In this document: positions 37,199 to 41,239 of the stretch, piece by piece
Numbering within the stretch: position 1 is the first letter of the stretch
Layout: every line of letters starts with the position of its first letter
DNA from: Methylobacter tundripaludum
Lineage (GTDB): Bacteria; Pseudomonadota; Gammaproteobacteria; Methylococcales; Methylomonadaceae
Assembly (NCBI RefSeq): GCF_002934365.1
Contig: NZ_PTIY01000004.1
Location: 124,001 to 188,000, forward strand
Direction of reading: 5' to 3'
DNA: 64,000 nucleotides
Translations under genes and position numbers: made by a program
Notes under the pieces: model-generated
The model's database searches: none
Told to the model about the DNA's origin: nothing
Seen by the model: the letters and a program-made list of their open reading frames with translations, nothing else

Positions 37199-37288
37199 AC
37201 ATAACGTAGAGCTAACCGGGCGCGGCCCCGAAAGCTGAAAAAATAAAACCGCATTATAGCCGCGCTCCGGTTGAGCGCTGGGTTAGCG
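37199..37288 (-). repeat. attC of cassette 4
   Basis: On the - strand: CGCTAAC (37288-37282), arms AGCGCTCAACCGGAGCGCGG and CCGCGCCCGGTTAGCTCT, and GTTATGT (37205-37199). 90 bp. The toxin stop TAA lies inside the first box. Confidence 0.85.
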
Positions 37289-37585
37289 GTCACGGGTACG
37301 ACCGACCCAGTAACGGGGTTTACGAGAATTATGTGAAGCTGCAAAAACGACTATACCTTCGCCCTCTTGTCGGTAGAAAAGCGAGAAAGGAAACCCTCTG
37401 AGAAAAACGCGCCTCGTATTTGAAGCTGATGGTGTCCCTGATAGCGGGAAAGTCAACGCTCGGGCAGTTGCTTCTTCGACGGCTTTGGTAAAGCGGTCTC
37501 CTAAGCCCGGTTGTGCTTCGTTGTAATAAGCGACCTCAGCAAGAAATTCTTGGCGAGCTTCTGCGACAAAACGTGCTCGCTTCAC
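37283..37585 (-). CDS. RelE/ParE-superfamily toxin (integron cassette)
   Basis: 100 residues: MKRARFVAEARQEFLAEVAY, RFTKAVEEATARALTFPLSG, TRRVFLRGFPFSLFYRQEG and FAASHNSRKPRYWVGRT. This is the ParE/RelE fold with the helical hairpin and a C-terminal basic stretch. The spelling VFLRGFPFSLFYR and HxxRKPRYW matches the ParE-like branch paired with TIGR02574 antitoxins. Its start overlaps the antitoxin stop. As a cassette module it may stabilise the array. Confidence 0.9.
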   Translation of the reverse strand: MKRARFVAEARQEFLAEVAYYNEAQPGLGDRFTKAVEEATARALTFPLSGTPSASNTRRVFLRGFPFSLFYRQEGEGIVVFAASHNSRKPRYWVGRTRDR

Positions 37586-37812
37586 TGGGTTATGCGCCTT
37601 GCTTCAGCAAACACATCCTCTGCCGGATAGGTCTGTAGTTCCCCCTTGTCGAAAGCGGCGACACGCTTCTCAATTTCTCGTTCCCACTCTGTTTCGATTT
37701 CGGATAGGGGGGAGTCATGTAGTGACTCAAGAAGAACTTCAGCAAGATGTGCTCGCTCTTCAGGCAAAAGTGAACATGCTTGTTTCTCTAACTCGATTAG
37801 TAACGCGGACAT
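37582..37812 (-). CDS. TIGR02574-type addiction module antitoxin (integron cassette)
   Basis: 76 residues: MSALLIELEKQACSLLPEER, AHLAEVLLESLHDSPLSEIE, EWEREIEKRVAAFDKG and ELQTYPAEDVFAEARR. The LPEERAxLAExLLxSL motif and GE..xxxxxEVF.E.R tail define the antitoxins of RelE/ParE-like pairs. It overlaps the toxin gene by 4 bp and lies just after the attC of the methyltransferase cassette. Confidence 0.9.
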   Translation of the reverse strand: MSALLIELEKQACSLLPEERAHLAEVLLESLHDSPLSEIETEWEREIEKRVAAFDKGELQTYPAEDVFAEARRITQ

Positions 37813-37879: not shown

Positions 37880-37948
37880 CGCTAACGTAAAAGTAAGGGG
37901 CTGCGCGAGGCTTTATTCGCGCGGTCCCTCTTGACTGACAGGTTATGC
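37880..37948 (-). repeat. attC of cassette 3
   Basis: On the - strand: GCATAAC (37948-37942), arms GTCAAGAGGGACCGCGCG and CGCGCAGCCCCTTACTTTTAC, and GTTAGCG (37886-37880). 69 bp. The AGGGACCGCGCG/CGCGCAGCCCCT core closely resembles that of the attC at 38866-38987. Confidence 0.85.
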
Positions 37949-38611
37949 CTCACGCTGATAGCACCCACGGAACCTGCGTACCGCAGGTTGTTCGTCGTCA
38001 ATGTAATCCTCGGAATATCTCTCAACAAAGCCTTGCGACTTAAGTGTGTCGATTTCTCGTTGCGCAAGTGGCCAAGGCATCGAGCCTATTGCTTCTGAAT
38101 CTCCTCTCAGTCGGGTGATGAGCATAAGATAGCCACCGGGCAAAACAAATTCAGAGATTTGCTTTAGCGCTTTAGCACGTAACTCCGGTGGCAGCACCTG
38201 AAGTGTGTACGATTCAAGCACCAAATCGAAAGCACCCGACCAGTTATCAGGAGCTTGAAATAGATCGCGTGTTATGTACATGACTTTGGAATTGGGAAAT
38301 CGGCTTTCACATACTGAAATGGCGGTAGGCGAAATGTCGAAAGCCGTAACATCAAAACCGAGACCGGAAAGCCATTCAGCATCGTCACCCAAGCCACATC
38401 CGACCTTCAAAGCCCTTTGTCCGAAAGAGAAACGACCATCTATCTTTTGGAAAAGCTCAATCAAGTTCGGATTGGGCACATGGTCGGCCCAAGGGACAGA
38501 AACTCCTTCCGAGAGAGCTTGGGCATACAACTGCTCAAACCATTCGAGAGGATGCCCGGCGGCGATTGCTTCTTGGGCTAACTGCCTCGCGGTAGCGCGA
38601 TGATTATTCAT
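37943..38611 (-). CDS. SAM-dependent methyltransferase (integron cassette)
   Basis: 222 residues from the ATG at 38611 (MNNHRATARQLAQEAIAAG). Class I Rossmann methyltransferase: SAM motif I in ALKVGCGLGDDAEWLSGLG, motif II acidic in VTAFDISPTAISV, then DLVLESYTLQVLPP and a post-core LPGGYLMLITRL. It resembles the thiopurine methyltransferase/UbiE-like group found in integron cassettes, but the substrate is unknown. The stop lies in its attC. Confidence 0.85.
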   Translation of the reverse strand: MNNHRATARQLAQEAIAAGHPLEWFEQLYAQALSEGVSVPWADHVPNPNLIELFQKIDGRFSFGQRALKVGCGLGDDAEWLSGLGFDVTAFDISPTAISVCESRFPNSKVMYITRDLFQAPDNWSGAFDLVLESYTLQVLPPELRAKALKQISEFVLPGGYLMLITRLRGDSEAIGSMPWPLAQREIDTLKSQGFVERYSEDYIDDEQPAVRRFRGCYQREA

Positions 38612-38629: not shown

Positions 38630-38674
38630 GCATAACGTTTTGCGCATCGTGTACGCTCTAACGACGCGTTAGCC
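38630..38674 (-). repeat. attC of cassette 2
   Basis: On the - strand: GGCTAAC (38674-38668), short arms GCGTCGT and ACGATGCGC, and GTTATGC (38636-38630). 45 bp, the shortest of the array. Confidence 0.7.
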
Positions 38675-38695
38675 GATATTTATACTGCACAGTTG

Positions 38696-38815
38696 TTAAT
38701 CGTTGGGACGAAAGTGGGGGTGTGTTGACTTTAGAAAGTGATACCCTCGCCCCGTCGTATCAACGCAGTTATACGACGGGGCGAGGGAATCACTTTTAAG
38801 AAGAAACAACAACAT
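38696..38815 (-). CDS. Possible 39-residue ORF in the palindrome cassette
   Basis: ATG at 38815 with AGAGG five bases upstream opens a 39-codon frame (MLLFLLKSDSLAPS...FRPND) ending at TAA 38696-38698. The whole 26-bp-arm palindrome lies inside it. The amino-acid sequence shows no known motif. It may be a leader-like peptide or chance; the well-placed ribosome site is the only evidence for coding. Confidence 0.3.
   Translation of the reverse strand: MLLFLLKSDSLAPSYNCVDTTGRGYHFLKSTHPHFRPND
38735..38796. repeat. Long palindrome in cassette 2
   Basis: Arms 38735-38760 and 38771-38796 are 26 bp each with a single mismatch and a 10-base loop (CAACGCAGTT). The core is CCCTCGCCCCGTCGTAT. The hairpin would be very stable on either strand. 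There is no T-run immediately after, so it is not a classic terminator. Confidence 0.85.
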
Positions 38816-38865
38816 AAAACCTCTTTTGTTTCAATCGATTAACGTATCTATGGGGTATAAATGTT

Positions 38866-38987
38866 GGCTAACGTTACGGTAAGGGGCGCGCCGCTAACGG
38901 AAGCCAAACGAAGCCACCCAACCTTGAAAAAAACCAAACTTCAAAACCGCCACCGGGCGGCGCGTCCCTTTGACTGACTTGTTAGAT
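38866..38987 (-). repeat. attC of cassette 1
   Basis: On the - strand: ATCTAAC (38987-38981), arms AAGTCAGTCAAAGGGACGCG and GCGCGCCCCTTACCGTAAC, and GTTAGCC (38872-38866). 122 bp, the longest and most canonical of the set. The stop of the third gene of the cassette borders the first box. Confidence 0.88.
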
Positions 38988-39400
38988 CATTTATAGGGTT
39001 CGAATTTTTGACTGTTAAAATGGTAAGTAGCGAAATCGCCATCAGAATCAATAAGGCCTAACACAACATCAAATGGCTCATTGAAATATTGCGACCCTCC
39101 TTCTTGTGTGATGTCGAATACTTGCTTCTCTAATTTTCGCACTATAACAGCAGGTTCACCTTCTTTTGGAAGCTTTCTATCCTTCATTCCTTCCTTCCAG
39201 CGGACAATGTCTCCTTCTTTGAAATCATGCTTAACTTTATAAATGTCATACAGGCGTTTCAACTCATCGGGTGTGCTTTGCTTTCTTTTACTTGAAAGTG
39301 CGTTACTTAAAAGCTCTCTTAGCAATAATTCTTTATCTTTATCACGTCCAGGTCTATCTGCTAAGACAGATATGAGCATTTCTTTATCTAACTCTGACAT
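38987..39400 (-). CDS. Third gene of cassette 1: soluble protein of unknown function
   Basis: 137 residues, GGAGAG placed just before the ATG. An alpha-helical N-terminal half (SELDKEMLISVLADRPGRDK, TPDELKRLYDIYKV) is followed by a compact domain beginning HDFKEGDIVRWKEGMKDRKL and ending YFNEPFDVVLGLIDSDGDF... HFNSQKFEPY. The latter resembles a widespread uncharacterised beta-rich domain found at the C-terminus of many hypothetical proteins. It overlaps the upstream gene by 17 bp, so the three cassette genes are translationally linked. Confidence 0.75.
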   Translation of the reverse strand: MSELDKEMLISVLADRPGRDKDKELLLRELLSNALSSKRKQSTPDELKRLYDIYKVKHDFKEGDIVRWKEGMKDRKLPKEGEPAVIVRKLEKQVFDITQEGGSQYFNEPFDVVLGLIDSDGDFATYHFNSQKFEPYK

Positions 39401-39674
39401 TTTTTCTCTCCGAAATTAGTGCGGTCAGGTCGTAAATATTGTTTTGATTAGAACTGGATTCTTTACTATTTTGTGGTTCAATTTCATTGATTCCAGAATC
39501 TTCCTCAAGTTCTTTTCGAAGCATAGGCGCAAGGCGAGCCGCTAGCTCTGATACAAATTCATCTGTTATTGTGGGCGCTTGTTTTATGTGGCTCGCTTCT
39601 TGAAAACCTATGGCTATTGCCACTAGAAATACGATAACTACGAGTACACTAATTATTACTACTATTGATGCCAA
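39384..39674 (-). CDS. Second gene of cassette 1: single-pass membrane protein
   Basis: 96 residues from a TTG at 39674, with AGGAGG 8 bases upstream, so the non-ATG start is well supported. One membrane helix at the N-terminus (SIVVIISVLVVIVFLVAIAI) is followed by TITDEFVSELAARLAPMLRK and an acidic, Asn/Ser-rich tail. No family is recognised. It overlaps both its neighbours. Confidence 0.75.
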   Translation of the reverse strand: MASIVVIISVLVVIVFLVAIAIGFQEASHIKQAPTITDEFVSELAARLAPMLRKELEEDSGINEIEPQNSKESSSNQNNIYDLTALISERKNVRVR

Positions 39675-40108
39675 AGGGTTCCTCCTTTCTTGCTCTTATA
39701 AAAGAGATACGCTTTTCCGAAAGTTGCATAAATAAGAGCCATCGCAAAAGATGAAATATTTAGATTATTGACAACTGAAATTTTGTTTGGATCTGAAGTT
39801 TCACTGGAAAAAATCAAATAAGAAGTGATAACAAAGCTCATTATGGCTATTGGCATAAATGCAAATGCAGTGGCTTTCCATAGGTTTCCCAACTTTGATT
39901 TTTCATCATCAAAAAAGTAATCCAGTGTCACGCCAATTGTTACTGCTAAAGTGAAAAACAACAACACACCATCTTTCACAAAAAAGTATAGTGTTGCATC
40001 TTTAGGCTCATTATATAAAGAAACCCCAATATCTACCCAAAGTTGCATAAGACCGAAAACCACGATCAGTATCGTCCAGTAAACTCCTTTGCCGATGCAT
40101 ATTACCAT
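39662..40108 (-). CDS. First gene of cassette 1: four-helix membrane protein
   Basis: 148 residues with four predicted membrane helices (about 8-30, 45-63, 79-101 and 117-135) and short loops. AAGGA lies 8 bases before the ATG at 40108, which is 17 bp inside the cassette boundary. No conserved motif is recognised. Being first after attI, it and the two overlapping genes behind it are best placed for expression from an integron promoter. Confidence 0.75.
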   Translation of the reverse strand: MVICIGKGVYWTILIVVFGLMQLWVDIGVSLYNEPKDATLYFFVKDGVLLFFTLAVTIGVTLDYFFDDEKSKLGNLWKATAFAFMPIAIMSFVITSYLIFSSETSDPNKISVVNNLNISSFAMALIYATFGKAYLFYKSKKGGTLWHQ

Positions 40109-40124
40109 GATTGAGTATCCTTTG

Positions 40125-40246
40125 ATCTAACGTAATATATACGACACCATTTGTCGTATAAAAAAATCGCATTGTCGTATAATCATTTTTGATTAAAGTT
40201 ATCTTATTGTTTTCAATGGTTAGATTGTAAGGTAAGGCGACATATC
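40125..40246. other. attI region and intI/array intergenic control region
   Basis: The - strand GTTAGAT at 40131-40125 fits the GTTRRRY recombination box where the first cassette joins attI. The 115 bp between it and intI is AT-rich and should hold attI, the cassette promoter and the intI promoter. No canonical LexA box (CTGT-N8-ACAG) is present. Confidence 0.7.
40138..40160. promoter_or_regulatory. Operator-like palindrome at attI
   Basis: TATACGACA (40138-40146) and TGTCGTATA (40152-40160) form a perfect 9-bp inverted repeat with a 5-base spacer. A third TGTCGTATA copy is at 40173-40181. Spacing suggests a dimeric regulator site, or IntI binding sites of attI. Confidence 0.55.
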
Positions 40247-41239
40247 ATGCAAACAAATACGACATCGGCGCAGCCCAAAAAACTACTCGACCAAGTCCGT
40301 GACAAGATTCGTTTCAAGCACTACAGCCTGAGCACGGAAAAAACCTATATCGCCTGGATTAGGCAGTTTATTTTGTACCATCACAAGCGCCATCCCTTGG
40401 AAATGGGGGCGCTTGAGGTAGAGGCGTTTTTAACCTATTTGGCTACGCAACGGCATGTATCCAGCTCTACCCAAAATCAAGCGTTGTCGGCGATTTTGTT
40501 TTTGTACCGCGAGGTATTGGCTGTGGATTTATCGTGGCTGGATAATTTTGAGCGTTCGAAAAAGCCCCGGCGTTTGCCTGTGGTGCTCACGATTCAGGAA
40601 ATACAGGCTCTGTTGCATGAGGCTTCCGGTGCGCCTGAGCCGATTTGTTTGATCATTAAGTTATTGTACGGCACCGGTATGCGGTTGATGGAGGCGGTGC
40701 GGTTACGGGTGAAAGATGTTGATCTGGAACGCAAGGAAGTTATTGTGCGTGACGGTAAGGGCGGTAAGGATCGGGTGACTATGTTGCCGGAAAGCCTGGT
40801 GGAATCGATGCGCACTCAGCTTGCGTTGCGCCGGGTCTGGCACGAGCAGGATGTTGTTTTGGGTAAGGTCGATGTGTGGTTGCCGGATGCGCTGGCGATC
40901 AAGTATCCTAACGCTTCAAAAGAATGGGGTTGGCAATATGTGTTTGCCGCCAAAAATTATTCAGTCGATCCACGCAGAAAATCGGAACGCCGTCATCATG
41001 TTGAAGAAAAACAGGTGCAACGCTATGTCAAACTGGCTGCTCAAACGGCAGGCATCGCCAAGCCGACGAGCCCGCATACTTTACGGCACAGCTTTGCGAC
41101 GCACATCTTGCAGTCGGGTTACGACATTCGTACTGTACAAGAATTGCTGGGGCATAGCGATGTCGCCACGACCATGATTTATACCCACGTGTTAAACAAA
41201 GGCGGCAAAGGCGTGGTGAGTCCGCTGGATCGGTTGTAG
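40247..41239 (+). CDS. intI: Integron integrase
   Basis: 330 residues, a tyrosine recombinase. The N-terminal SAM-like core-binding domain includes YSLSTEKTYIAWIRQFILYH. Catalytic residues lie in GTGMRLMEAVRLRVKDV (Arg), HTLRHSFATHIL (His, Arg) and LGHSDVATTMIYTHV (His, Tyr). The diagnostic IntI-specific extra domain is present before the last catalytic block (ALAIKYPNASKEWGWQYVFA then DPRRKSERRHHVEEKQVQR), which separates IntI from XerC/D. The gene is intact and divergent from the cassettes, so the integron may still recombine. Confidence 0.96.
   Translation: MQTNTTSAQPKKLLDQVRDKIRFKHYSLSTEKTYIAWIRQFILYHHKRHPLEMGALEVEAFLTYLATQRHVSSSTQNQALSAILFLYREVLAVDLSWLDNFERSKKPRRLPVVLTIQEIQALLHEASGAPEPICLIIKLLYGTGMRLMEAVRLRVKDVDLERKEVIVRDGKGGKDRVTMLPESLVESMRTQLALRRVWHEQDVVLGKVDVWLPDALAIKYPNASKEWGWQYVFAAKNYSVDPRRKSERRHHVEEKQVQRYVKLAAQTAGIAKPTSPHTLRHSFATHILQSGYDIRTVQELLGHSDVATTMIYTHVLNKGGKGVVSPLDRL

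Follow-up and report, generated by a model that had tools for sequence, protein, structure and literature searches.

A three-gene membrane cassette captured by a Methylobacter integron is a candidate undescribed self-defence module

Integron arrays are able to carry defence genes, and systems in which a STAND/NLR-type sensor works with a separate membrane effector form a known class. PADLOC lists a candidate system, PDC-M29, that consists of an ATPase and a second gene, and toxin–antitoxin pairs of the ParE type occur as integron cassettes. Among smaller systems, PD-T4-10 is presented by Vassallo et al. (2022; PMC9519451) as a two-gene toxin–antitoxin anti-phage system that protects against T-even phages, and the same paper counts DUF6575 among domains new to phage defence.

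Here, we describe a three-gene integron cassette (ORF1, ORF2 and ORF3; Table 1) from the window, by which we mean the whole 64,000-nucleotide stretch of Methylobacter tundripaludum DNA that was analysed. Like PD-T4-10, the cassette is built from overlapping small genes, and at three other loci PD-T4-10-cluster genes are followed by an ORF3 relative; it differs in that its first two genes encode membrane proteins and none of its three proteins matches PD-T4-10A or B (PADLOC, up to E 5). The link to STAND/NLR-type systems lies in an ORF1 relative elsewhere whose next two genes encode a membrane-anchored NB-ARC-like protein and a TPR protein, whereas the window cassette contains no STAND NTPase and a small putative adaptor plus ORF3 occupy that place. 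One ORF3 relative sits directly before matches to PDC-M29A/B, and PDC-M29-type two-gene clusters were also seen in further Thiomargarita-type loci, but the cassette itself has no ATPase or nuclease. It shares a multi-gene layout with ParE-type cassettes, one of which is present in the same array, but none of its three proteins significantly matches a known toxin or antitoxin family (Pfam, NCBIfam). The closest known folds for ORF3 are SH3-like barrels (PsaE, NdhS, NusG KOW and the C-terminal domain of nitrile hydratase beta). In the open literature searched on integrons, SH3-like proteins and phage defence, no name for the cassette or the ORF3 family appears in the abstract openings.

We consider that the cassette is probably an undescribed bacterial self-defence switch, because ORF3 relatives adjoin several different virus-defence-like genes. 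The specific reading we favour, at a probability of roughly 0.47, is a mobile three-gene module of the abortive-infection type, with ORF1 as membrane effector, ORF2 as membrane adaptor and ORF3 as soluble sensor or regulator. In the mechanism that we infer, the three proteins would form a complex whose triggered toxicity would confer phage protection: ORF1, as an effector with four helices in the inner membrane, would damage or depolarise that membrane once released, ORF2 would be a single-pass adaptor linking it to the soluble partner, and ORF3, through its helical N-terminus and conserved SH3-like barrel, would either keep the membrane pair inactive or activate it on recognising a phage- or damage-related ligand. 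The infected cell would then halt growth ahead of phage release.

Table 1. Coordinates of the cassette, its genes and the adjoining integron features in the window.
Feature	Position	Strand	Description
ORF1	39662..40108	-	148 aa; four-helix membrane protein, proposed effector; homologues at L138, L144, L035 and L019
ORF2	39384..39674	-	96 aa; starts at TTG; polar tail after a single N-terminal membrane helix; adaptor role proposed
ORF3	38987..39400	-	137 aa; soluble; predicted helices and SH3-like barrel (about residues 60-137); proposed sensor/regulator
Whole cassette	38873..40131	-	1,259 bp; limits from the empty site on contig C8
attC region of cassette	38866..38986	-	Five further matches, on C6, C8, C11 and C19 (two), at 78-91% identity
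attI region, cassette-to-intI interval	40127..40246	.	97.9% copy of 40127-40272 on C8
Integron integrase gene intI	40247..41239	+	TIGR02249, E 1.5e-138
Next cassette, apparently gene-less	38638..38872	.	Three near-identical copies in the genome

A preliminary description of this DNA had placed the cassette first after attI and judged it the most recently acquired; the first claim holds and the second is supported. The cassette adjoins the attI side of the integrase gene, which scored 461.5 against TIGR02249 (cut-off 265), and forms a separate unit with attC-like sites, bounded by attI on one side and the next cassette on the other. An empty site survives on contig C8 of the same genome, where attI (97.9%) abuts the next cassette (99.6%) and the three genes are absent. 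The junction, TAAC|GT, is identical in both copies, which fixes the inserted unit, and the C8 arrangement supports capture of the three-gene cassette at attI after the next cassette was already in place. This is a clean example of a complete multi-gene membrane module captured by an integron, with the empty site surviving in the same genome. At 0.368, the GC content of the three genes lies below the 0.497 of the window; a scan for promoters yielded 3 sites, compared with an average of 5.2 in shuffled sequence.

Several other features of the integron deserve mention. Repeated TGTCGTA/TACGACA motifs lie in the attI region just 5′ of ORF1 (40140-40180) and are possible operator or integrase sites. 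The gene-less cassette contains a long hairpin and has three copies (99.6% identical): one is here, another adjoins attI on C8, and the third lies by a second integrase on C18; that second integron-integrase-like gene (G000:C18:67878-68843, L131) is 41% identical and lies in a 478-aa frame. The C8 stretch (L129, 2638-3013) comprises attI, the gene-less cassette and 26 bases of intI; a full integrase match is absent from it, and it looks like a displaced array start. Further cassettes on the minus strand of the window encode a ParE toxin with an Unstab_antitox partner (37283-37812) and a methyltransferase (Methyltransf_25, TPMT; 37943-38611).

The three genes were found where the preliminary description had put them, with overlaps of 13 bp (ORF1/ORF2) and 17 bp (ORF2/ORF3) and with ribosome-site-like stretches (AAAGGA, AAAGGAGG and GGAGAG) 5′ of the three starts. 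ORF1, described as a four-helix membrane protein, shows three strong hydrophobic stretches; its structure model, of low confidence (mean pLDDT 64.9), contains four helices, and Foldseek returned no match for it at E 0.001. ORF2 has the single N-terminal hydrophobic stretch claimed for it; its supposedly acidic tail is a weak feature, with 12 D+E against 9 K+R in the window and 10 against 14 in its counterpart at locus L138. Searches of Pfam, NCBIfam and PADLOC (the last up to E 5) gave no significant match for any of the three, so the genes are not drawn one by one from unrelated known families. Such a want of database families might also be expected of three spurious or decayed ORFs, a reading that we find scarcely credible: homologues occur in the same order elsewhere, and the differences between the window and L138, counted by codon position, were 51/31/80 over 141 codons for ORF1 and 58/38/89 over 134 codons for ORF3, a pattern of selection by which ORF1 and ORF3 are not chance ORFs and the reading is refuted for both. 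The corresponding figures for ORF2, 50/36/60 (81 codons), are less clear.

The order multi-TM gene, single-TM gene, ORF3 was recovered at four loci: the window, L138, L035 and L019. Thus, the homologues do occur together in other genomes, which the preliminary description had proposed to look for. The best preserved set, L138, comes from a single-contig genome of the same family. Its ORF1 (157 aa) is 50% identical to that of the window (E 9e-54) and its ORF3 (137 aa) 49% identical (E 5e-50); the gene between them encodes a single-TM protein of 110 aa, and the overlaps are 4 and 20 bp. More distant sets in the same order were found in Oceanospirillales Hp36 (L035) and in a Thermaceae MAG (L019). 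An ORF1 HMM built from the window, L138 and L144, with L035 and L019 left out, was searched against 5,511 ORFs of the collected loci and matched L035 at 4.9e-14 and L019 at 1.3e-3; the next, unrelated ORF scored E 0.73 and there were no other credible further matches. Against shuffled sequences, ORF1 of the window gave z 7.65 with L035 and z 5.6 with L019, while L035 and L019 compared directly gave only z 2.2. For ORF2, sequence similarity was not significant (shuffle z 2.7, 0.3 and -0.9 when the window, L035 and L019 were compared pairwise), and BLASTP found no meaningful match to the L138 counterpart (E 0.89); ORF2 is conserved in place and topology across loci, and our claim goes no further. 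Searches of class samples with ORF1 gave matches beyond its own genome only in G428 (E 0.005) and G264 (E 7e-4), and these were rejected as not real; by HMM, ORFs of the two loci concerned, L100 and L147, scored E 4.7 and 0.73.

GC content falls within the module relative to its flanks at L035 (0.32 against 0.42), L019 (0.42 against 0.69) and G923 (0.40 against 0.52-0.54). From this contrast and the patchy presence of the set, the three genes appear to have been transferred as a unit. At L035 the flanks carry a tyrosine integrase along with Vsr, a C5 methylase and an Mrr nuclease; a transposase lies upstream of L019; and the neighbours of L138, read by eye, include an SDH-type protease-like gene. 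Looked at for neighbouring defence genes, the preliminary suggestion of an anti-phage or membrane-stress module fares unevenly: the L035 island fits a defence role, and so, often, do the neighbours of ORF3 relatives elsewhere, but the other three loci with the full set (window, L138 and L019) lack clear defence neighbours, most of their neighbours being read by eye only.

The protease-like gene at L138, the presence of two membrane proteins and the lack of a recognised toxin or nuclease in the cassette would also suit an accessory module for membrane stress or transport, with ORF1 and ORF2 as a small channel or transporter under the control of ORF3 and no link to phages. We think this unlikely, given the defence-like company kept by L035 and by ORF3 relatives, and given the patchy presence of the genes: a single-sequence query with ORF3, for example, found no match in 20 genomes of the same genus.

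The AlphaFold model of ORF3 combines helices with a small five-stranded barrel, the arrangement that characterises SH3-like barrels, and this fold assignment is predicted from the model. ORF3 relatives were collected from one scan of genome contigs with a single peptide pattern and from samples of genomes. PHROGs returned two families without assigned function (3e-5 and 4.2e-4), Pfam gave no convincing match among 70 family members, and a search of the PDB with the ORF3 profile returned no chain up to E 10. Within the family, W68 and E108 are present in 70 of 70 members, D111 in 69 and R132 in 68; conservation of this kind suggests a specific ligand. The window protein departs from near-invariant positions at N74D, D129N, R131Q and R132K, although it shares D74, N129 and Q131 with ORF3 of L138.

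A possible kinship of ORF3 with nitrile hydratase was examined and set aside. The top Foldseek hits had E 1.4e-2 and a layout similar by eye; profile comparison with PF02211, the beta C-terminal domain, did not bear it out (hhalign probability 4.2%, E 0.0099) and that family was absent from the Pfam matches of the 70 members, leaving a likeness of fold only.

Neighbours of ORF3 relatives were surveyed at 81 genome and viral loci, of which 80 were analysed (L079 had no ORF), with adjacent genes picked mechanically; families were identified by scan in representatives and the remaining cluster members were assigned by BLAST clustering only. At 15 of the 80 loci there was no same-strand gene within 150 bp of the ORF3 relative. 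At nine it directly followed one of three recurrent pairs, with L138 as a tenth case and the window an eleventh: a HEPN-cluster gene and a gene of ~200 aa (L021, L024, L049, L069), two PD-T4-10-cluster genes (L044, L053, L074), or a multi-TM and a single-TM gene (L019, L035). The ORF3 relative is not always the last gene, since more same-strand genes lie downstream at L021, L044 and L049. Scans identified HEPN at L021 (5.3e-10) and L081 (4.8e-8), PD-T4-10_A (2.1e-27) and PD-T4-10_B (2e-28) at L053, PD-T4-10_A (9.1e-9) at L044, and DUF6575 at L011 (2.9e-6) and L018 (2.1e-31); L011 looks like the L074 locus and has a TIR_2 gene (5.8e-17) after the ORF3 relative. Elsewhere, ORF3 relatives precede an AAA_15 ATPase (3.3e-26) and a nuclease-like gene (L026; PDC-M29A 1.1e-40, PDC-M29B 1.1e-11) or an AAA+ ATPase (L013, where the scan found AAA+ and WYL/WCX genes). 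By BLAST clustering, the AAA+ cluster extends to 23 loci; another, probably that of the WYL gene, covers 18.

As a control, 73 adjacent genes were compared with 58 genes lying >1.5 kb from an ORF3 relative, excluding seven Halomonas near-copies (L083-L089), eight viral loci (L090-L097), L079 and any gene that touched an end or was <80 aa (100 aa in the control), and counting members per family. Among adjacent genes, 16 members matched IetA, although such IetA-like AAA+ matches are generic, and 5 matched PDC-M29A; in the control, each family was limited to a single member at most. One control match is probably L035's own methylase, and hence defence genes are not wholly absent from the control. 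Taken with the L035 island, these neighbours support a putative association with defence, as judged from gene content.

The same survey bears on whether the cassette is instead an addiction module that stabilises the array, in which ORF1 (with ORF2) would be a membrane toxin and ORF3 its antitoxin, any phage protection being absent or incidental. Overlapping small genes are what such a module would have, ORF3 relatives follow PD-T4-10A/B-like genes, themselves a toxin–antitoxin pair, and a ParE and Unstab_antitox cassette lies in the same array; yet there are three genes where two would suffice, no integron was seen by eye in the stretches read at L138 and L035, and the genes beside ORF3 relatives also include ATPases and a nuclease-like one, unusual neighbours for a dedicated antitoxin. 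On balance, we regard this explanation as rather unlikely.

Several of the results above count against the abortive-infection-type reading: the want of a PADLOC match for any of the three proteins, the three loci that lack clear defence neighbours, the 15 loci where the ORF3 relative has no adjacent same-strand gene, the non-significant ORF2 similarity, the z of 2.2 between the ORF1 proteins of L035 and L019, and the departures of the window ORF3 from near-invariant positions. ORF3 relatives also occur in phages, where a role in host defence is not the obvious interpretation. They were found in 8 viral contigs and, with a viral relative as query, in 9 phage records, and a Bcep22 protein resembles ORF3 by fold (E 2.2e-7). 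These occurrences would suit a superinfection-exclusion or anti-host device of phage origin that was captured by the integron, but that origin is improbable: ORF3 of the window, used as query, had no match in the phage collection; ORF1 of the window, searched alone, had no close relative in viral contigs; and with the ORF1 HMM no ORF of the viral and phage loci collected did better than E 1.2. Nor do the phage neighbourhoods speak for it, as the relative in phage DC1 (L106, 3324-3746) lies beside replication genes (a replication protein and DnaC) and that in phage PEp14 (L105, 1258-1836) has hypothetical neighbours.

On the ORF3 tree (70 rows, 83 columns), which leaves out the later-found L138 and takes its partner labels from the mechanical gene picks, the three membrane-type rows show no resolved grouping. 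Five partner types require 7 changes where the least possible is 4, by which partners seem to have been exchanged, on a tree with many unresolved forks. ORF1 was seen once without ORF3, at G043. The gene after this ORF1 relative (E 9.5e-18) encodes a protein of 414 aa that has a membrane helix at its N-terminus and contains the motif GLGGIGKT, and a TPR-like gene comes next; no ORF3 match was found in G043, where the contig stops some 275 bases upstream of the ORF1 gene. Neither PF00931 nor phmmer against PDB recognised the 414-aa protein, and ‘NB-ARC-like’ is thus a reading by eye. This partner counts against the abortive-infection-type reading to the extent that it is known from one locus, near a contig end. 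Exchangeable sensors and effectors would give just such a pattern, with ORF1 accompanied by either ORF3 or an NTPase-like and TPR pair, and ORF3 by many partners.

A broader and more tentative idea, which we hold at well below even odds, is that ORF3 is a shared, unnamed immune subunit. Recognition would fall to a conserved SH3-like module, the helical N-termini would be interchangeable, and the subunit would serve at least five unrelated effectors, namely HEPN proteins, PD-T4-10-like toxins, an AAA_15 ATPase with a nuclease-like protein, AAA+ ATPases and, here, the four-helix membrane effector, whose other relative would be driven by an NLR-like sensor. Phage copies would perhaps be decoys or the thing sensed. 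If true, a small domain with no Pfam match in 70 members, found beside several effector-like genes and in phages, would become a searchable marker for defence biology, and one could ask which common signal the ORF3-linked effector-like genes answer to.

No relatives of ORF1 or ORF2 were found in plasmids. The 414-aa protein of G043 has several plasmid relatives, annotated as tetratricopeptide repeat or FxsT proteins, and one, on a Methylomagnum plasmid (L148), is 77% identical. It is preceded by a 67-aa gene with one hydrophobic stretch and followed by a TPR gene with kinesin-light-chain-like repeats, and a TIR gene lies upstream. Both the 67-aa protein and the NB-ARC-like product encoded after it (L148, 3549-5035 for the two genes) contain ‘NSPII’, a motif that we take to resemble bacterial amyloid signalling motifs.
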